Part shown: piece by piece, positions 20,055-30,021 of the stretch
Numbering within the stretch: position 1 is the stretch's first letter
How the letters are laid out: each line of letters starts with the position of its first letter
Source of the DNA: Acidobacteriota bacterium
GTDB taxonomy: Bacteria; Acidobacteriota; Holophagae; Holophagales; Holophagaceae
DNA: 36,424 nt
Direction of reading: 5' to 3'
NCBI GenBank assembly: GCA_018269025.1
Contig: JAFDVN010000102.1
Coordinates: forward strand, 1 to 36,424
The notes under the pieces: generated by a model
Seen by the model: the letters and a program-made list of their open reading frames with translations, nothing else
What the model was told of the DNA's origin: nothing
The model's database searches: none
Made by a program: the position numbers and the translations under genes

Positions 20055-21511
20055 GGCCGCTCCTTGAAGAAAGCTTCCACCGCCGAGCGATCGCTGTAAG
20101 GACGCTTCACTCCCTTCACCTCCTGGTAGGGCTCGTGACCCTTGCCTGCGAGCAGGAGCAAGTCGCCGGGACGACAGTCGGAGAGGGCGGCGCGCACCGT
20201 GGCGGCGCGATCCGCGTCCCGGTGGTAGCGAGTGCCATCCTTGCGAATCGTTTCAGGAATGCCCGGCGCGGCGTCATTCAGGATGACCTCGGGGTCTTCC
20301 TCGCGCGGATTGTCCGAAGTGTGCCAGATCACATCCGCGCCCTTCGCGACCGCTTCGGCCATGAGCGGACGCTTGGTGCGATCCCGATCGCCACCACAGC
20401 CAAAGAGCACATGGAGTCTTCCGCCCGGAGGCAGCAAGCGCCGTCCTTCGATGAGCAGTTTCTCCAGCGCGTCCGGCGTGTGGGCGTAGTCCACCATCAC
20501 ACCGAAGGGCTGGCCGCAGTCCACCCGCTCAAGGCGACCGGGGGCGCCCTGAAGGCCGGACACGGCAGGCAGCAAATTCTCGATGTCGAAGCCCGCCTCG
20601 ATGCATGCCGCGAGGCAGGCCAACAGGTTGTAGACATTGAAGCGGCCCAGGAGCGGGCTCGCGATGGGCCAGCTTCCCGCCGCGCTGTGGAGCGTAAAGC
20701 GGGAGCCCGTAGGTCCAAGTTCCAAATCCGAAGCTCGGTAGCAGGCGGGCCGCTCGATGGCGTAGCTCACATGGCCGCTATCGGCGAGCCAGGCCCGGCC
20801 CGAGGGGTCATCCGCATTGATGAGAAACCGGTCGCACTGACCCGCGAGTTTCTTCTTGGACGCGAAATAGGCCTCCATGGTGCCGTGAAAGTCCAGATGG
20901 TCCTGGGTAAGGTTGGTGAAGACACCCACCTTGAACCGCGCCCCCGCGACCCGACCGAGATCGAGGCCGATGCTGCTCACCTCCACCGCTGAAGCGCGGT
21001 CACCCGCCTCGAAACTTCGTCGTAACCAACGGTAGAAGCTCGGGCTCTCCGGCGTCGTGCGGACGGCCTCTTCTTCATGGTCCCCCGCCGCGTTCAACAC
21101 CGTGCCCACGAGCCCGCAGCCGATGCCCGCGCCGCGAAGAAGCTGGCGGATCAGCGTCGTCGTCGTCGTCTTGCCATTGGTCCCCGTGACACCGATGAGG
21201 GCGATGCGTTCATCTGGGTCGCCGTGGAGGCGCTTGGCGAGGCGTCCCATGGCGAAGCGGGCATCCGGCAATCGCGCATAGGCCAAGCCCGGAGGCGGCT
21301 CGACGGCGGATTCACTCAAGGCCGCCGATGCGCCCTGGGCGGCCACCTGGGGAAGGAAGGTGATGCCATCCGACTTCTCGCCCTTCAACGCGATGAAGGC
21401 CCATCCCGGTCCGGCCTCCCGGCTGTCGCAGGTGAGATCAAGAACTTCCGCGTCCTGTGGCCCGGCCAGGCTCGTCACCGCTTCGCCTTGGATGAGTTCC
21501 GAAAACTTCAC
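20051..21511 (-). CDS. murE: UDP-N-acetylmuramoyl-L-alanyl-D-glutamate--2,6-diaminopimelate ligase
   Basis: A 486-residue Mur ligase that adds the third amino acid to the precursor stem peptide. The N-terminal domain shows LDLTCDSREAGPGWAFIALK; the ATP site is GVTGTNGKTTTTTLIRQLL; YAHTPDALEKLL and FGCGGDRDRTKRPLM are in the later domains. The motif DNPR in HTSDNPREEDP marks the meso-diaminopimelate-specific type, so the wall is of the Gram-negative DAP kind. The start is GTG 21509-21511, overlapping the ftsI stop codon (GTGA). The DinB-like gene overlaps its stop by 4 bases. Confidence 0.96.
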   Translation of the reverse strand: MKFSELIQGEAVTSLAGPQDAEVLDLTCDSREAGPGWAFIALKGEKSDGITFLPQVAAQGASAALSESAVEPPPGLAYARLPDARFAMGRLAKRLHGDPDERIALIGVTGTNGKTTTTTLIRQLLRGAGIGCGLVGTVLNAAGDHEEEAVRTTPESPSFYRWLRRSFEAGDRASAVEVSSIGLDLGRVAGARFKVGVFTNLTQDHLDFHGTMEAYFASKKKLAGQCDRFLINADDPSGRAWLADSGHVSYAIERPACYRASDLELGPTGSRFTLHSAAGSWPIASPLLGRFNVYNLLACLAACIEAGFDIENLLPAVSGLQGAPGRLERVDCGQPFGVMVDYAHTPDALEKLLIEGRRLLPPGGRLHVLFGCGGDRDRTKRPLMAEAVAKGADVIWHTSDNPREEDPEVILNDAAPGIPETIRKDGTRYHRDADRAATVRAALSDCRPGDLLLLAGKGHEPYQEVKGVKRPYSDRSAVEAFFKERP

Positions 21512-23646
21512 GGGCCCTCCACGGTGATGGTGACGGTGTCGCCGTCCTTGAGCTCTGTCCCAGCCGCGGGGCTCTGGGTTTTCACTTTGGCGGCGAAGGC
21601 GGTGGAGGGCGCGCCCTTCACCGCTGGCGTGCCGCCCACGAGCAGGATGCGCTGGAGGGCGGCCTTCAGGCTGAGGCCGCTCAGATCGGGCACTTTGCCT
21701 TTCTCGATGTGGAAGGAGGCTTCGTCCGTCTCCGCCACGGGCCAGTCCCGCAGGGTGAGGCGCTGGTCGGATTCGGCGGCCTGGCCTCCGGCGGTCTGCT
21801 GGTAGCGCAAGATGGCGTTGCCCACTTCCGCGAAGAGCGGCGCGGCGACGCTGCCGCCATCCAGATCACCCTGGGGATCATCCAGCATGATGAGGATGCC
21901 GTAGCGGGGATGGTCCTCGGGGAAGAACCCCATGAAGGACGCGTAGTGGCGCTTGGGATCGTATTTGCCGTCAATGATTTTGCGACTCGTGCCGGTCTTG
22001 CCGAAGGCGATGACGCCGCCATCCAGCTTCGCCCGCTTGGCCGTGCCTTCGGTGATGACCCCTTCGAGCACGCCGCGCATGATCTCGGAGGTCTCGGGGC
22101 TGATGACCTGCTGGCGGACTTCCGGCGCGTGCTCCTGGAGCAGCGCACCCTGATCATTGAAGACCTTTTCCACGAGGATGGGCTTCATGAGCTTGCCGCC
22201 GTTGGCGATGGCACAGCCCGCCATGAGCACCTGGAGGGGCGAGGCGCTGAGCCCGTAGCCGTAGGAGATCGTCGTCTGGGAGGTGCCGCTCCACTGGTCC
22301 GGGGAAGGCAGTCGGCCGTTGGTCTCGCCGGGGAAATTGAGCCCTGTGGGATCGCCGAAGCCAAACTTCTTCAAGTATTCGTAGTGGTCCGCCGGCTTGA
22401 GGCGGGTTCCGATCTCCGCCGCGCCGATGTTGGAGCTGAGCCAGAGCACCTGTTCGAAGGAGATCGTCCCGTGGGCGTGGGTGTCCGTGACGATCTGGCC
22501 ATGGGGGAACGCCATGCGTCCTGGGCCGGTGTTGAACATCTCGCCCAGGTGGACCTTCCGCTCCTCCAGGGCGATGGCGGCGGTGAAGATCTTCATGGTG
22601 GAGCCGGGCTCGTAGGCGTCCTCCACCGGATGCACCCGGCGCGCGTCCCGCTGCCGATCCAGCTCCGCCTGGTAATCGGCCTTCATCTCCGGGGTCATTT
22701 CGGATTCCGAAAGGCCCTGGAACTTCTTGGGAAGGATGTGGTTCGGGTCAAAGGTGGGCGTTCCCGCCATGGCCAGGATTTCGCCAGTGTCCGGGTCCAC
22801 GACGATGGCATAGGCGGTCTTGGGGTGGCTCTTGGCGACGGCCTCCGTGAGCGCGTCCTCGACGATGTGCTGGATGGTGGCGTCAATGCTGAGTTGGATG
22901 CTGGAGCCGTTCACTGGCACCTGGGCGTAGTTCTCGCTCATCTCAAGCAGGTGCCCACGGGCGTCCCGGGGCGCGACCAGCTTGCCTTCGCGGCCTGAGA
23001 GCACCTCGTTGTAGGCGCGCTCGATGCCGAGCTGGCCGAGGCCGTCAATGTTGGTGAAGCCGAGGATCTGGCAGGCGAGGCTGCCGCGGGGATAGAACCG
23101 GCGAACCTCAGGTAGGAATTCCAGGCCTTCCAAGTCCATCGCCTTCACCGCCGCCGCCTTGGAAGGCACGAGCTGGCGCTTGATCCACACGAAGCTCTTC
23201 TTCTTCAGCAGGCGGCTCAGGATGTCCGATTTGGACATCTCCAGCACCGGCGCGAGCCGCGCGGCCACTTCCGCCGCCGTCTTCCGATCGGGTTCCCCCC
23301 ACTTATCCGCGCCGGGCTCTTGCTGGTAATCCGGGTAGAAGGTGCGTGGGTCGGCGAAAAGACTATCCACCCTCAAAGAGATGGCGAGGTTGTCCCCCTT
23401 GCGGTCCCGCAGTTCGCCGCGGATGGGCATGATGTCCACGGTGGTGAGGTGCTGGCGCGCGGCGCGCTCGTGGTAGGAGCGGTGCTGCACCACCTGCAGC
23501 CAGAAGAGCCGCAAAAAGACGGCTGCGCCCCAAGCCGCGACGAAGGCCAGCACCCACGGCCGACGACTGCCCTGGAGCTGACGCGCCTCCGGCGCCCCCT
23601 CCATGAGGCGGCGCGAGGAACGGGATGAGGAGGACAGCAGCGACAT
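21508..23646 (-). CDS. ftsI: Septal peptidoglycan transpeptidase (PBP3) with PASTA domain
   Basis: A 712-residue class B penicillin-binding protein that cross-links peptidoglycan at the septum. A membrane segment lies near residues 30-50 (PWVLAFVAAWGAAVFLRLFW). The dimerisation domain starts with RGELRDRKGDNLAISL. Transpeptidase motifs are Ser349-TMK352 in EPGSTMKIF, SSN in LWLSSNIGAAEIG, and KTG in AFGKTGTSRK. The C terminus (about 650-712) is one PASTA domain (VPDLSGLSLKAALQRILLVG), common in Gram-positive enzymes and also found in SpoVD-like and Acidobacteriota/Deltaproteobacteria proteins. Start ATG 23646 is 28 bases after the FtsL-like gene; murE overlaps its end. Confidence 0.96.
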   Translation of the reverse strand: MSLLSSSSRSSRRLMEGAPEARQLQGSRRPWVLAFVAAWGAAVFLRLFWLQVVQHRSYHERAARQHLTTVDIMPIRGELRDRKGDNLAISLRVDSLFADPRTFYPDYQQEPGADKWGEPDRKTAAEVAARLAPVLEMSKSDILSRLLKKKSFVWIKRQLVPSKAAAVKAMDLEGLEFLPEVRRFYPRGSLACQILGFTNIDGLGQLGIERAYNEVLSGREGKLVAPRDARGHLLEMSENYAQVPVNGSSIQLSIDATIQHIVEDALTEAVAKSHPKTAYAIVVDPDTGEILAMAGTPTFDPNHILPKKFQGLSESEMTPEMKADYQAELDRQRDARRVHPVEDAYEPGSTMKIFTAAIALEERKVHLGEMFNTGPGRMAFPHGQIVTDTHAHGTISFEQVLWLSSNIGAAEIGTRLKPADHYEYLKKFGFGDPTGLNFPGETNGRLPSPDQWSGTSQTTISYGYGLSASPLQVLMAGCAIANGGKLMKPILVEKVFNDQGALLQEHAPEVRQQVISPETSEIMRGVLEGVITEGTAKRAKLDGGVIAFGKTGTSRKIIDGKYDPKRHYASFMGFFPEDHPRYGILIMLDDPQGDLDGGSVAAPLFAEVGNAILRYQQTAGGQAAESDQRLTLRDWPVAETDEASFHIEKGKVPDLSGLSLKAALQRILLVGGTPAVKGAPSTAFAAKVKTQSPAAGTELKDGDTVTITVEGP

Positions 23647-23674
23647 TCAGTTCGGCCGATCCTCCAGCCTACCG

Positions 23675-24052
23675 TCAGCGACCCAACTCCTCCCAGGAGT
23701 TCACGGGGCGCAGCTTGGCTTCGCGCTGATCGGCGGGGCTGAAGGCGCGCTGGATGAGGCGACCCTGCTTCTTGGGCTGCATGCCGCTCTTCACGGCGTA
23801 GGACTGGATTTCCTCATCCCGCTGGAAGCGGCTGCGTTCCAGGAGCAGCTTGCGCTGGGTCTCCTGCTCTTGATTGATGCGGGCCTGCACCTCCGTCATC
23901 CGGTAGCCCAGGCGCACGGACTGGACCTTCAGGTAGACGAGGGACATGAGCGGCAGCGCGAGGGCCAGGGCGAGGAGCAGCAGGCGCAGGACGCCCTCGC
24001 TCTCGACTTGGCGGACCTGGGCACGGTTTCCGAGGTTCACGGGGGACCTCAC
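23675..24052 (-). CDS. ftsL: FtsL-like cell division protein
   Basis: A 125-residue bitopic membrane protein: short cytoplasmic N terminus, one membrane segment at about residues 22-42 (VLRLLLLALALALPLMSLVY), then a predicted coiled coil (YRMTEVQARINQEQETQRKL) and a periplasmic tail. FtsL proteins of this shape bind FtsB/FtsQ in the divisome and diverge strongly in sequence, so the name rests on topology and on the position between rsmH and ftsI. The start is GTG 24050-24052, overlapping the rsmH stop (GTGA). Confidence 0.85.
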   Translation of the reverse strand: MRSPVNLGNRAQVRQVESEGVLRLLLLALALALPLMSLVYLKVQSVRLGYRMTEVQARINQEQETQRKLLLERSRFQRDEEIQSYAVKSGMQPKKQGRLIQRAFSPADQREAKLRPVNSWEELGR

Positions 24053-25014
24053 TGAGGCAGGCGCTCGGCCACGCGCAGGCGGGCGGAGCGGGAAGGCGGA
24101 TTGGCGGCGAGTTCGGCCTCGGAAGGCTCCTGACCGCCGGGATGAATGAGCGTGATGAGCTTGGGAAGGGGTTCGGGAGCGAAGCGGCCCGGGCCGTCGT
24201 AGATGCCCGCGAGGCGGCGGAAGGTCTGCTTGACGATCCGGTCCTCCAGGCTGTGGAAACTGATGACCGCGAGGCGTCCGCCAGGGCGGAGGGCCTGGAT
24301 CGCTTCGCCGAGCGTCGCCGCCAGGCGCTCCAACTCGCCGTTCACGGCGATGCGGATGGCCTGGAAGGTCCGGGTGGCGGGGTCCGCGTGGCCCTTGCGC
24401 TTGGCGGGTTCCCGGGGGATGACCTTGTAGACCGCTTCGGCGAGATCGAGGGTCGTCGCGAGGCGGCCTTCATGGAGCGCGGTGAGGATGGACCGGGCGA
24501 TGAGCTTGGCGAGGCGCTCTTCGCCGTAGGTCTTCAGCGCGTAGGCCAGGGTTCCTTCATCCTGGCGCTGGATCCATTCCAGGGCAGTCATGCCGGAGTC
24601 GGTATCCATCCGCATGTCCAAGGGGCCCTGTTCCCGGAAGCTGAAGCCCCGGGAAGCGGACTTGAGCTGGAGGGTCGAGACGCCAAGATCGGCGAGGATC
24701 GCATCGAAACCCTGGGGGGCGTGAAGCGCTTTCCAGGCCTGGAAGTCCGGCTGGCGGAAGACTTCCTCGTGGGCGGAGGCGAACACGGCCAGGCGGGGGT
24801 CGTGGCCCAGGCGCTCCTGCGCCAAGGCCCGAGCCTCGGGGTCCCGGTCCACCCCCGCGTACCGGGAATCGCCATCGCAGCGGCGGAGCAAAGCCTCCGC
24901 GTGGCCCCCAAGGCCCAGGGTGAGATCGAGGATGCGGGCGGCCGGCGGAAGCGGCAGAGCCTCCAACACCTCGTTGAGGAGGACAGGGATGTGGACGGGG
25001 GTCGTGGTCATCAT
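24049..25014 (-). CDS. rsmH: 16S rRNA (cytosine(1402)-N(4))-methyltransferase
   Basis: A 321-residue SAM-dependent enzyme (also mraW) that methylates C1402 of 16S rRNA in the decoding centre. The start HIPVLLNEVLEAL, the SAM site RILDLTLGLGGHAEALL, DAILADLGVSTLQL, GPLDMRMDTDSGMTA and the ending VISFHSLEDRIVKQTFRRLA are family marks. Length is typical. Its ATG directly follows the mraZ stop codon with no spacer; an in-frame second ATG follows at once. The ftsL start overlaps its stop. Confidence 0.97.
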   Translation of the reverse strand: MMTTTPVHIPVLLNEVLEALPLPPAARILDLTLGLGGHAEALLRRCDGDSRYAGVDRDPEARALAQERLGHDPRLAVFASAHEEVFRQPDFQAWKALHAPQGFDAILADLGVSTLQLKSASRGFSFREQGPLDMRMDTDSGMTALEWIQRQDEGTLAYALKTYGEERLAKLIARSILTALHEGRLATTLDLAEAVYKVIPREPAKRKGHADPATRTFQAIRIAVNGELERLAATLGEAIQALRPGGRLAVISFHSLEDRIVKQTFRRLAGIYDGPGRFAPEPLPKLITLIHPGGQEPSEAELAANPPSRSARLRVAERLPQ

Positions 25015-25479
25015 CTAGATCCCCAGTCCCGCGAGTTCAGAGAGGTCTTCCGGCGTGAGCGGATCGGCCACCAGACGCTTCTCGAAGCCGCCGCGGTTCC
25101 AGATGGCGATGTGGTCCATCTGACCGAGCACCGCGACCTCGCCCTTGAGCCCGGCGGATTCGCGCAGGATGGGCGGGATGACGAAGCGGCCTTGGGCGTC
25201 CGGCTCCACTTCCGAGCCGTAGTAGGCGGTCACTTCCAGGAACTTGCGCTTGGCGGGGCTGGTGGCGGGTAGGGCCGCCAGACGGGCCTCGATACCCTCC
25301 CACACCGGCATGGGGTAGAAGCGGGCGCTTTGGCCATCCAGGGAAGTCAGGTAGTGGACAGAGGCTCCCTGGCCCTCGCCCTGGGCGAAGGTTTCCAGCT
25401 CGGCCTTGAAGGTTGAGGGGAGCTTGAGGCGTCCCTTCTCATCCACCGTGGCCGGGGAATTGCCGCGGAATCGCAGCAT
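25015..25479 (-). CDS. mraZ: Transcriptional regulator MraZ
   Basis: A 154-residue protein with two AbrB-like (SpoVT) DNA-binding repeats, seen as VDEKGRLKLPSTFKAEL near the start and DAQGRFVIPPILRESAGL near the middle. In E. coli MraZ represses the dcw cluster it begins by binding boxes at 10-bp spacing upstream of itself. It is first in the cluster here also, and an array of five such boxes lies upstream (25527-25576), so autoregulation is expected. A GAAAGG ribosome site precedes the ATG at 25477-25479. Confidence 0.96.
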   Translation of the reverse strand: MLRFRGNSPATVDEKGRLKLPSTFKAELETFAQGEGQGASVHYLTSLDGQSARFYPMPVWEGIEARLAALPATSPAKRKFLEVTAYYGSEVEPDAQGRFVIPPILRESAGLKGEVAVLGQMDHIAIWNRGGFEKRLVADPLTPEDLSELAGLGI

Positions 25480-25718: not shown

Positions 25719-26378
25719 CTAGGACAACCGCTCTTCCTTGAAGTCCAGCAGGTGCCCGCTCTTCTTCGCCTTGGTCTTCAAGTAACGGAGATTGTTGGGG
25801 TTGGCATCCATTTGGTGGCGCTCCCGCTCCACCTCGATGCCCGCCTGTTCCAGGGCACCGATCTTCTTGGGGTTGTTCGTCAGCAGCTTAATGCGGTGGA
25901 TGCCGAAGAACTTCAGCATTTCCACCGCGCTGTCGTAGGTCCGAAGGTCGTCGGGGAAGCCCAGCGCGTGGTTGGCCTCCACCGTGTCCATGCCCTGCTC
26001 CTGGAGCGCGTAGGCCTTGAGCTTGTTGAGGAGGCCGATCCCACGGCCTTCCTGACGCAGGTAGAGCACCATGCCGCCGTGGGCCGCGATGTGCTGCAAC
26101 GCTGCTTCGAGCTGCTGGCGGCAGTCGCAGCGCAGGGAGCCGAGCACATCCCCCGTCCAGCATTCGCTGTGGATGCGCACCGGGATGCGCTTGCGGGCGT
26201 CAATCTCGCCGCTGACGACGGCGAGGTGCTCCTTGCCCGTCGTCTTTTCGAGGAACCCGTAGACCGTGAAAGTCCCGTGGAGGGTCGGCACCACCGCCTT
26301 CGCGATGAAGGGCACCCGCTCCGCCTCGAGCTTCCAGAGCAGCTCGAGCTTCGGGGCGGTGGGGCAGTCCTTCGACAT
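25719..26378 (-). CDS. ribA: GTP cyclohydrolase II
   Basis: A 219-residue zinc enzyme that opens GTP to the first intermediate of riboflavin synthesis. The zinc ligands are Cys73, Cys84 and Cys86 in SECWTGDVLGSLRCDC; LYLRQEGRGIGLLNKLKAY is the catalytic and substrate-binding stretch, and LLTNNPKKIGAL is also conserved. It is the stand-alone form, without the RibB domain fused in many bacteria. It lies upstream of mraZ but is closed by its own terminator. No FMN riboswitch is seen upstream; a 13-base perfect palindrome (26415-26427) lies 36 bases before the start. Confidence 0.95.
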   Translation of the reverse strand: MSKDCPTAPKLELLWKLEAERVPFIAKAVVPTLHGTFTVYGFLEKTTGKEHLAVVSGEIDARKRIPVRIHSECWTGDVLGSLRCDCRQQLEAALQHIAAHGGMVLYLRQEGRGIGLLNKLKAYALQEQGMDTVEANHALGFPDDLRTYDSAVEMLKFFGIHRIKLLTNNPKKIGALEQAGIEVERERHQMDANPNNLRYLKTKAKKSGHLLDFKEERLS

Positions 26379-26479: not shown

Positions 26480-29027
26480 CTAGCTTGCCCCTTCCGGGGG
26501 CGTGGGCCGCTTCGAAGCAAAGTCCGGGAACATCTCCTTCGTGCATTCCGGGCAGATGCCATGAGTGAAGTCGGCCTCGGAATGGCTGGAGATGTAGGAT
26601 TCGATCTGGTTCCAGTAGCCCCGATCGTCCCGGATCTTCTTGCAGCAGGAGCAGATGGGGAGGAGCCCCGATAGTTGCTTCACCTGGGTCAGGGCCGTGG
26701 TGAGTTCCGCGTTCCTCGCCTGAAGTTCCTCGGTGCGGTTCGCCACTTCCGATTCGAGCGCCGCCTTGCTCCGGGCGAGGGCTGCCACCCGAAGGCGGAT
26801 GAGGCCGTAGACCCCCGCGACGCCGACGAGCCCATAGATGAGAAGCGCCCAACCCGATAGCCACCAGGGCGGGCGCACGCGGAAGGCGACCGTCGCCACC
26901 GGCCCAAAGGACCCATCGTCTTGGGCTGCGCGGGCTTCGAAGCGATAGCTTCCTCCAGGCAACGACGCGTAGCGCGCGAGATGGCCTTCCAGGTCGTGCC
27001 AGGTGTCTTCAAGGCCCACCAAACGGATCTGGATGCGAAGGCCGCGTTCATGCAGAAAGGTGGGCGCGCTCACCCGGAAGGACACCGTGCCTTCCCGATG
27101 GGAAAGGGTCCCAAGGGCGTAGGGCGGCAGGAGCGTTCGAGCGCCCGTGGTGACTTCCAGAACGCGGGCCTCTGGCGCGGGGCTCGGAGTCGTCGTCGGG
27201 GATGGATCGTACCTCACGAGCCCCGCGCCCGTTCCCACCCAGACATGGCCGGGCTCGACGAGCAGCGCGTGGACGGAACAATCCTCATTGGCCATGCCGT
27301 CTTCGCGACCCACATGGAGCGGGGGATCCAGCCGATCCATGCCGCGGTCTGTCGTGGCCCATACCTTGCCAGCGGCATCCGTCCCAACCGCATAGATGAG
27401 GTTCGAATGGAGCCCCTGCCCTTTCGTGCGCTTCTCAAGAACGGTAAGGCGACCGCTTTCCACCCGGACCCGCGTCAGCCCTTCGGGTTCCTGGTAGTGA
27501 ACCCAGGCGCTGCCATCGGGCAGGAAGGCAACGCCCCGGACATTGTGGGGCTCCAGCCCATCCTGGGTGGTGAAGAGACGCCAATTCGAATCCTTCCCCC
27601 GCACCAGCAGCCCCGCCGATGAGCCCGCCCAGAGGCGTCCCTGGGTGTCCTCCTTCACCGCGAAAACGGCGAGGTCCTTCACGCCAAACCGCGCGGGCGC
27701 GACCTCCTGGATCAGACGGCGGGCCGTGGGATCCCACCGAAGCAGGCCGAGCCGCGTGTGGCCGAACCAGACTTCATGCCTGGAATCCTCCATGACGCTG
27801 TTCACGAAGGAACCCGCATCGCCCAAGGGCGCTTTCTCCGCGCGGGTCTGACCAGGGCGCATCCACAAGGTCGGTCCGATGGTGTTTACCATCCAAAGGG
27901 TGCCGAGATGGTCCTCGGCCAATGACTTTATCCGCCAGCCTTCGGTGCCTGGAACCGATTGAAACCCTGCCGGACCAAGTCGGTAAGCCCCGTCATCCGT
28001 TCCGATGAGGATCTGATCCTTTGGATCGCGCGTGATCCACCAGACGGTTTCTCCGGAAGAACCATCCCCAACCCCATAGTTTCGGACTCGGCCCCCGCCA
28101 TCCAGCCGCGCCAGATCCGGACCAACCACCCACAAGGTCCCTTCGGAATCCCGGAAGATCGTGCGAACCCACCGGAAGGGAAGTCCTTCCGCTCGCCCGA
28201 TGGTTTCAGCGTGACCCTCGACGAGGTGGACGATGCCGCTCTGGGTCGGTAACCAAACCGATCCATCCCGGTCCAGGAAAGGCAGACTGGCGGGAGAAAG
28301 GCTTCCACTCAACTCCTTGGACTGGTCCAAGAATCGCGAGCCACCGGGTTCCTTCATCGCGAGGGAGCGCCCGGTCCCAGCCCAGAGCCTACCTTGCCCA
28401 TCCTCGATCACGAGCCGCGGACCCTCCTGAGGCAAGCCATCGGCGGGCCCCCAGGATTCGGACCGTCCATCGGGGTAGATGGCATGGATCCCTGCGGGAG
28501 ACGCGATGTACATGGCACCGCTGAGGGGCCCGGCGCATAGCGCGAAGGGCGCGGCCGGTGGATGCCAGGCCACCTTCGTGAAGGAAAGGCCCTTCTGCTG
28601 GACATACAGCGCCGCACCGACGGAGGTCCATACGCGGCCCTGACCATCCAACGCGAGATGACCTGCGCCGCTGGTGGAGGGGATCCCATCCAACAGAGCC
28701 TGATCCACACGGCCATCCTTGAAGCGCACGAGCCCGCGGATAGAGGGGATCCAGAGCCCCTCCTTCGTCGCGAGGATCTGGGGCACATAGTCCGCCGGGA
28801 GACCGTCCTTCGTGGTCCACACCTTCCATTGACCGGCGGAATGGCGGAGGAGCCCCCCTTCGGTCCCCATCCAAAGAAATCCATCCGTGTCCTGGGCGAT
28901 GCAGGCGATGGTGCCCGCGGGCAAGCCCTGCTCCGGACCCACCACGGTGAAGGGAAGACGACCGCCCCCCTGGGCTGCGAGCCCCGTCGCCAGTACCGCC
29001 GCGAGAACCCAGCGCAGGAAGGAGATC
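26480..29027 (-). CDS. Beta-propeller/Y_Y_Y sensor-like membrane protein with C-terminal Cys motif, no kinase
   Basis: An 849-residue protein. After a signal peptide (residues 1-20) the periplasmic part to about residue 600 has two-component-regulator propeller repeats (GLPAGTIACIAQDTDGFLWM; many GxxxxRF/GLxxyD blades). A Y_Y_Y-like domain (about 640-715), one membrane segment (722-745) and a coiled coil (748-785) follow. The end (786-849) is a conserved motif with Cys793, 795, 796, 826 and 829 (LPICSCCKKIRDDRGYW; HGICPECTKEMFPDF), which may bind zinc. No histidine kinase, GGDEF or HTH domain is present. The start is TTG at 29027-29029, overlapping the upstream stop; the listed end is the last base before that overlap. 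Confidence 0.82.
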
Positions 29028-30021
29028 AACCGAGATCCTTGGCGACCTGCTCCGCGAGGGCCCCCTGAACGGTGGCGAGGGCCTTGGTGAGCGGCCCATC
29101 GAGTTTGGCGCCGCTGGCAAGACGATGACCACCGCCGCCGAAGCGCTTGCAGACGGCGTTCACATCCACCCGTTCCCGGGAGCGGAGGGAGAGCTTGATG
29201 CGGCCGTCATTCGCTTCGTAAAGCAGCGCGGAGACTTCCACGCCCTTGAGGCGCATGGGCTGTTGGACCAACTCGTCGAGGTCCTCGTGGTTCGCGCCGC
29301 AGGCCTCCAAATCGGAAAGGGAGACGGTGACGAGCGCCACGCGGTTCTCCTCAACCAGCCGCAGGCCCTCCATGGCGCGGCCCCAGAGCTTCACCTTCTG
29401 GGGCGTGTCCGTGTGGTAGAGCCCCTGGAAGGTGCGGGCGGGTTCGGCGCCCATCTCGATGAGCTCGGCTGCGGCGCGGTGCAGCTTGGGCGTGGCGTTG
29501 GAGAAGCGAAAGTTGCCCGTGTCCGCCACCATGCCCGCGTAGAGGGCGCGCACCATCGCGGGGGGCCATGGCTTCGCCATGCGCGTCGCGACTAGATCAT
29601 GGACCAGCTCGGCGCTGGCGCTGGCGGTGGCGTCCGTGAATTCCTGGTCGAAGCCCTTGGGCGCGTCCTTCAAATGATGATCCAGGCAGGCGCGGACGGC
29701 CTTCGTGGATTCAAACGCCCCGTGCATCGGGCCGAGGCGGTGGGGTTCCGAAGCGTCCGTGATGAGCCACACATCCGGCCAGGCGGCGAGATCCTTGTGC
29801 CGACCTTCCGGCTCGTAGGCCTCCGCGAGTCCGGCCTCGTCCAGCCACCGCAGGTTCTCCGGAATGGATGGCGTGACGACCATCCGCACCTCCTTGCCGT
29901 GCGAGCGCAAGTAAGCCGCGAGCCCAATGGACGCGCCGATGCCGTCCCCATCCGGATTCTCGTGGGTCGTGAGAAGAAAGCGCTGGTGCGCGTCCAGGAA
30001 GGCGGCGAAGCGGTCGAGCAT
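29026..30021 (-). CDS. DHH/DHHA1 phosphoesterase, NrnA-like
   Basis: A 331-residue phosphoesterase that likely degrades nanoRNA/oligoribonucleotides or 3'-phosphoadenosine phosphate. Motifs seen are THENPDGDGIGAS (His20, Asp24, Asp26), an Asp in ITDAS, LDHH in ACLDHHLKDAP, MVADTGNFRFSN, and the DHHA1 domain's FGGGGHRLASGAKL at the C terminus. All are intact. The ATG lies about 11 bases downstream of the end of a long hairpin repeat that separates it from the adenosine deaminase gene. The stop TGA overlaps the TTG start of the propeller sensor. Confidence 0.92.
   Translation of the reverse strand: MLDRFAAFLDAHQRFLLTTHENPDGDGIGASIGLAAYLRSHGKEVRMVVTPSIPENLRWLDEAGLAEAYEPEGRHKDLAAWPDVWLITDASEPHRLGPMHGAFESTKAVRACLDHHLKDAPKGFDQEFTDATASASAELVHDLVATRMAKPWPPAMVRALYAGMVADTGNFRFSNATPKLHRAAAELIEMGAEPARTFQGLYHTDTPQKVKLWGRAMEGLRLVEENRVALVTVSLSDLEACGANHEDLDELVQQPMRLKGVEVSALLYEANDGRIKLSLRSRERVDVNAVCKRFGGGGHRLASGAKLDGPLTKALATVQGALAEQVAKDLG

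Follow-up and report, generated by a model that had tools for sequence, protein, structure and literature searches.

The beta-propeller sensor described here very probably carries its output in a short C-terminal tail with four conserved cysteines. We assign this role to the tail because sister proteins hold a kinase or a GGDEF domain in the same slot, because many unrelated inputs precede it, and because the helix ahead of it varies in length in steps of seven. A first-pass annotation of the same DNA had suggested a small undescribed output or interaction domain, and this suggestion has gained ground, as no known family matched, the tail occupies the output slot of the sister sensors, and its linker is quantised in heptads. 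The module is present in roughly one in three of the genomes sampled, which represent six phyla, and it looks like a common, overlooked bacterial way to pass on signals. The libraries searched have no model for the tail, so that the annotation of proteins bearing it would stop at PAS protein, response regulator, or hypothetical protein and miss the output. If the tail is an output domain, a testable mechanism becomes available for many orphan response regulators and propeller sensors in Acidobacteriota, Desulfobacterota, Nitrospirota, and Planctomycetota, and the tail itself becomes a handle to fish for the partner.

The propeller sensor gene and its sisters

The features of the gene are collected in Table 1, with positions in the window, which is the whole stretch of 36,424 nucleotides that was analysed. 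The order of parts read at first pass, a propeller, a membrane segment, and a coiled coil followed by a short cysteine tail and no kinase, is borne out by Pfam, by hydropathy, and by the helix predicted by AlphaFold2. The Y_Y_Y-like domain that had been named is seen as a match below the cut-off of the family. The gene had been placed at 26480-29027; the locus is right, but that end is two bases short of the start at 29029 on the minus strand, a strand that had not been stated. The TTG start overlaps the end of a DHH-family gene (29026..30021). The tail has the form C-x2-C-x29-C-x2-C and holds both of the motifs reported earlier, LPICSCCKKIRDDRGYW and HGICPEC. The RTEEL anchor of the protein is at residue 765, 28 residues ahead of the first cysteine, and the invariant His823 is three residues ahead of the second CxxC pair. 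Beyond the four family-invariant cysteines, 793, 796, 826, and 829, the window protein has an extra one, Cys795.

Table 1. Parts of the propeller sensor gene and their positions in the window.
Feature	Position	Strand	Basis
Whole gene, 849 aa and stop, TTG start	26480..29029	minus	ORF list and translation
Predicted signal peptide, residues about 1-20	28970..29029	minus	Hydropathy
Beta-propeller, Reg_prop repeats, residues about 35-620, outer edge approximate	27170..28927	minus	Pfam PF07494, E 7.4e-30, 6 stretches
Y_Y_Y-like domain, residues 664-718	26876..27040	minus	Pfam PF07495, sub-threshold, 21.7 bits (cut-off 26.6)
One membrane segment, residues about 726-746	26792..26854	minus	Hydropathy
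Signalling helix/coiled coil, residues 747-787, pattern a-x-x-d-e-x-x	26669..26791	minus	AlphaFold2 and linker measurements
Tail, probable output domain, residues 786-842	26504..26674	minus	Alignments A1-A3
First CxxC pair, Cys793 and Cys796	26642..26653	minus	Alignment
Second CxxC pair (CPEC), Cys826 and Cys829	26543..26554	minus	Alignment

The input half, consisting of signal peptide, Reg_prop, membrane segment, and signalling helix, is shared with the Reg_prop/Y_Y_Y hybrid histidine kinases; for Y_Y_Y, the match is sub-threshold. Unlike these, the window protein has no HisKA, HATPase_c, REC, or DNA-binding domain; searches with Pfam and NCBIfam gave no match to HisKA, HATPase, GGDEF, or REC. 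Could the gene be a frameshifted or truncated kinase? This was rejected, since nine full-length relatives from Holophagales end in the same way and the next gene past the tail end is ribA (25719..26378); there is no frameshift or kinase fragment downstream, in agreement with the earlier reading. These nine relatives (L032, L035, L036, L038, L040, L041, L043, L044, and L045; from Geothrix, Holophagaceae, Acidobacteria, or similar) have the same layout and are 49-57% identical over 813-832 residues (tblastn, whole protein), and one more distant full-protein relative, L076, is 26% identical (tblastn). The four cysteines are kept in the tails of the full-length relatives. Among the tblastn matches listed (E 1e-20), neither the DHH gene nor ribA is near the homologous tail genes. 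In one near relative, a second tail protein of 198 aa (L032:973-1566:+) is encoded directly upstream of the propeller-tail gene. In the window, the genes at 21508-25479, which we take from their translations to be a division cluster (mraZ-like, rsmH-like, and a penicillin-binding protein), adjoin ribA and the propeller gene.

Four other propeller proteins from the window's own genome were compared. Two of these (L238 and L239) end in a HisKA/HATPase-type kinase, recognised by an HDLR box and G boxes, and two (L240 and L241) end in GGDEF, recognised by DxLTGLxNRR and GGEEF. Since the same membrane segment and RTxxL helix precede the output in all four, we place the tail of the window protein in the output slot. 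Counted from RT, the kinase His is at 34 or 41, the DxLT of GGDEF is at 18 and 18, and the first cysteine of the window tail is at 28.

Conservation of the tail and its nearest known counterparts

The 56-residue tail recurs in other genomes with E values of about 1e-31 to 1e-20, which is not chance. The alignments contain 76 of 86 tail stretches and the window (A1), 84 of 86 proteins and the window (A2), 75 of 85 tail proteins and the window (A3), and 74 of 87 same-strand neighbours (A4). Leu, Gly, Pro, the two CxxC pairs, Arg, Gly, Trp, Glu, and His are invariant in 106 distinct tails, and the same 12 columns are invariant in 76 aligned rows. All four cysteines are present in 194 of 195 tails, the exception (L205) being a truncated match that begins beyond its first CxxC; the loss of cysteines in homologues that had been named as a possible refutation is thus not seen. 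The Trp and the His of SHG are each found in 194/195. Of 224 distinct tail proteins, a set that includes 18 loci picked for odd layouts, 217 have the spacing C-x2-C-x29-C-x2-C. The tail fits a C4 zinc-binding domain on its four invariant cysteines, and because these form two invariant CxxC pairs, we suggest from the sequence that it probably binds zinc. About 20 further residues (Arg, Asp-Asp, Gly, Trp, Glu, and His) are near-invariant. Across the 224 proteins, the module has a mean net charge of -1.2; the window protein, at -3, is more acidic.

No tail family was found above chance in Pfam, NCBIfam, PHROG, or the PDB. In 73 of 76 tails there is a weak match to DUF3039, which spans about 13 residues and scores under the cut-off of the family; when tails are run singly against Pfam, the weak hits belong to zinc ribbons and fingers. 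AlphaFold2 predicts a continuous helix ahead of the tail. The mean pLDDT is 86.6 for the tail with the coiled coil and 91.3 for the tail alone (69 to 91 across its five models), and these two models differ in secondary structure. Neither matched a PDB fold, the best values being E = 2.9 with Foldseek and Z = 2.4 and 2.6 with VIA-align. The motif strings or a name for the tail were not found in the open-licence literature. These searches support the view that the tail is an undescribed domain by Pfam, NCBIfam, PHROGs, the PDB, and the open-licence literature.

Zinc-finger-like response-regulator outputs are already known in archaea, namely HalOD2 and TackOD1, according to PMC5847659. The tail differs from them in spacing and host range, and probably in its signature, which comprises SHGxCPxC, RDD, and GYW, and it serves membrane sensors as well. 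HalOD2, a halobacterial domain, is like the tail an output behind REC with two CxxC motifs and a predicted zinc finger, but its CxxC pairs are, by that description, 20-25 residues apart vs 29 in the tail. In the same account HalOD2 is known only from a few halobacteria, whereas the tail is found in six bacterial phyla; furthermore, the window protein has no REC domain, unlike the HalOD2 proteins. TackOD1 is described there as another Cys-rich response-regulator output of unknown role, also found in some bacteria, with 11 conserved cysteines, five CxxC, and an HxxC, compared with four conserved cysteines in the tail.

A role in DNA or RNA binding has been suggested in print for HalOD2 (PMC5847659), and the weak matches to zinc ribbons and fingers would fit a similar role for the tail, with the sensors acting directly on DNA or RNA as nucleic-acid-binding zinc-finger proteins. 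We consider this unlikely. The module is acidic to neutral, a membrane segment is predicted (by crude hydropathy) in 92 of the 224 proteins, and near-identical tails on up to 40 sensors per cell could hardly give separate targets.

The best PDB profile matches are to the coiled coil and CPxC of the Rad50 zinc hook (1l8d and 6zff, E = 0.016-0.035), which like the tail has a coiled coil leading into a CPxC turn. They raise the alternative that the tail serves passively as a cap or an assembly tag, which ends the coiled-coil dimer and staples it as the zinc hook does, with the output being another part of the protein or a hetero-partner. In the hook, each chain supplies a single CxxC, located at the apex where two antiparallel helices meet. 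The match is weak and spans only the helix and the first cysteine; the tail has two CxxC per chain and no returning coiled coil. With four invariant cysteines, each chain could hold a site of its own, in contrast to the hook, and the roughly 20 other near-invariant residues exceed the needs of a staple. Furthermore, the REC-coiled-coil-tail proteins are only about 200-250 aa and hold nothing else that could be an output, so that the tail is the only candidate output there. A mere cap is therefore improbable, and we continue with the tail as an output domain.

Input domains and linker length

The first-pass annotation placed the motif at the C terminus of some response-regulator and PAS proteins and proposed that partner domains be listed by profile search. 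This list agrees with that placement: among 85 full-length tail proteins, PAS, REC, and Reg_prop lead, with PAS models found in up to 22 members, Response_reg in 16, Reg_prop in 11, and Y_Y_Y in 9. Rarer inputs are dCache (5), HisKA_7TM (4), Tll0287-like (4), GAF (3), CHASE (2), and MASE6 (2). No catalytic output is among the 25 of 55 Pfam families listed for these proteins. Ahead of the tail are thus PAS, REC, propeller, membrane, and CheB-CheR-PAS inputs. The last is seen in L254, which is CheB-CheR-PAS-PAS-tail, an arrangement that normally ends in a kinase. REC is present in 44/195 tail proteins, the list of REC-tail proteins being drawn from loci biased to close relatives and from genome-search loci. 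A local histidine kinase profile matches none of the 224 tail proteins and 42 non-tail ORFs, and a local GGDEF profile matches 2 of the 224 and 4 non-tail ORFs.

In 210/224 distinct proteins (190/195 before the odd-layout loci were added), no more than 40 residues separate the tail from the C terminus. The 14 non-terminal cases include two REC-tail-REC-GGDEF proteins and six Nitrospirota proteins with the tail before GAF domains. The former, from two genomes of the family Holophagaceae (L242:2551-4218 and L259:2790-5771, both minus strand), are the sole examples observed of a diguanylate-cyclase protein that contains the tail. The latter (L262, L263, L265, L266, L267, and L269) have a divergent tail domain ahead of two or three GAF domains; Pfam found no recognisable output in the five scanned, that is, all except L269. 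In the planctomycete proteins L164-L167, the C-terminal tail is shorter.

How is the tail joined to such different inputs? From the lysine of the KP motif at beta5 of REC to the first cysteine of the tail, the distance is 34, 41, 48, 55, 62, or 90 residues, so that all 39 directly joined proteins are in class 6 modulo 7; left out of these are 7 of 43 KP-REC and KD-type proteins, which have an intervening PAS (at least 175) or another residue after the lysine. The REC subtypes KD, KG, and KQ have distances of 42, 42, 49, 54, 58, and 93 and are not of the KP class. From the RTxEL helix, the distance is 14, 21, 28, 35, 42, 49, or 56, with 33/33 in class 0 modulo 7; a looser pattern gave 32/35, its three misses being one KTAKL hit and two hits that fall within PAS sheets, all excluded here. 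From the DIT of PAS, it is 35 in 54 of 56 proteins, L125 and L202 being the exceptions. The control distance, from the last cysteine to the stop, is spread over all seven classes with 25-41 proteins in each. The chance of a single class would be 7^-5 for the six REC lengths and 7^-6 for the seven RTxEL lengths if the lengths were independent, rough figures given that the proteins are related and the measures were chosen after looking.

Linker positions -17, -14, -13, -10, and -7 are hydrophobic in 89-96% of 195 proteins, which gives the pattern a-x-x-d-e-x-x. In the Rec-GGDEF proteins (such as DgcR and WspR), PMC8041772 describes KP-to-DxLT lengths that differ by multiples of 7 and the same ambiguous a-x-x-d-e-x-x pattern, tied there to a coiled-coil register switch. 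These proteins are thus like the tail proteins in their REC or other inputs, heptad-step linker, and C-terminal output; however, their output is the GGDEF enzyme, while the tail is a 50-residue four-cysteine module without a recognisable catalytic fold. The linker data suggest a parallel coiled-coil dimer, continuous from the input into the tail in the manner of kinase and GGDEF outputs, with the tail as what the coiled coil controls, and gating of this kind is likely. That the cysteines are instead a redox or metal sensor, an input at the cytoplasmic end, is very unlikely: CxxC pairs are typical of thiol switches and the domain is ahead of GAF domains in the six Nitrospirota proteins, but most tail proteins are without any other possible output and the heptad-locked linker places the tail downstream of the input.

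Proposed mechanism and distribution

Our explanation as a whole, which we hold with moderate confidence, is that the tail is a stand-in output domain, dimeric, gated by the coiled coil, folded around zinc, and acting as a docking surface. The sensor would be a parallel dimer. The signal, a ligand on the periplasmic propeller here or phosphorylation of REC elsewhere, would twist the coiled coil or shift its register. Each C-terminal module would be folded around one zinc held by four cysteines, and the change in the coiled coil would alter how the two modules face each other. As a result, a surface of conserved residues (Arg, Asp-Asp, Trp, Glu, Tyr, and His) would be exposed or hidden, and this surface would most likely dock onto a protein partner that every tail sensor of a cell has in common. 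Such docking to a common partner is suggested by the acidic-to-neutral charge, frequent membrane attachment, high copy number, and uniform sequence of the tail, and we judge this part to be evenly balanced. More tentatively, the tail might be a general docking output through which many unrelated sensors per cell, up to 40 in one planctomycete, converge on one conserved, unrecognised partner, a hub alongside histidine kinases and cyclic-di-GMP. Among 74 neighbours scanned (of 87 on the same strand, the 67 on the opposite strand being left out), no family occurs more than 10 times (REC 10, HATPase 8, and HD 4). With no recurrent neighbour, the partner of the tail would not be encoded next door.

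Over six phyla, 724 genomes were sampled and 238 of them carry the tail, where each survey includes its positive centre genome. By phylum, the counts are 86/247 for that of the window (Acidobacteria), 27/119 for that of a Ca. Anammoxibacter genome, 53/118 for that of a Desulfobacterales genome, 29/79 for that of a Verrucomicrobia genome, 8/81 for that of a Herpetosiphonaceae genome, and 35/80 for that of a Nitrospirae genome; the Acidobacteria were surveyed with one query sequence at E 1e-3 and the other five phyla with profile A3 at E 1e-5. The scan of genome contigs confirmed 173 loci, and the best 80 of 173 were analysed, which biases this sample to close relatives. The window's genome, which is 76% complete, has one clear copy. 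The most copies per genome are 19 in an acidobacterial genome and 40 in the 7.6 Mb Candidatus Anammoxibacter genome (G252, L071), where many are on ORFs of about 190-250 aa and some have a six-residue insertion.

A tree of 186 tails has 68 changes of input type, compared with 93.4 in shuffles; with 56 columns and 11 of 182 branches starred, it is too weak to prove domain shuffling. No tail match was found in the INPHARED phages, and among plasmids there is one (Dongshaea). Nine IMG/VR contigs match; in five, the core CxWC...W...SHGxCPxC is found in proteins that are small or divergent. The proteins with this core on the viral contigs L203, L205, L206, and L207 are small, and the tail domain may also occur alone in phages.
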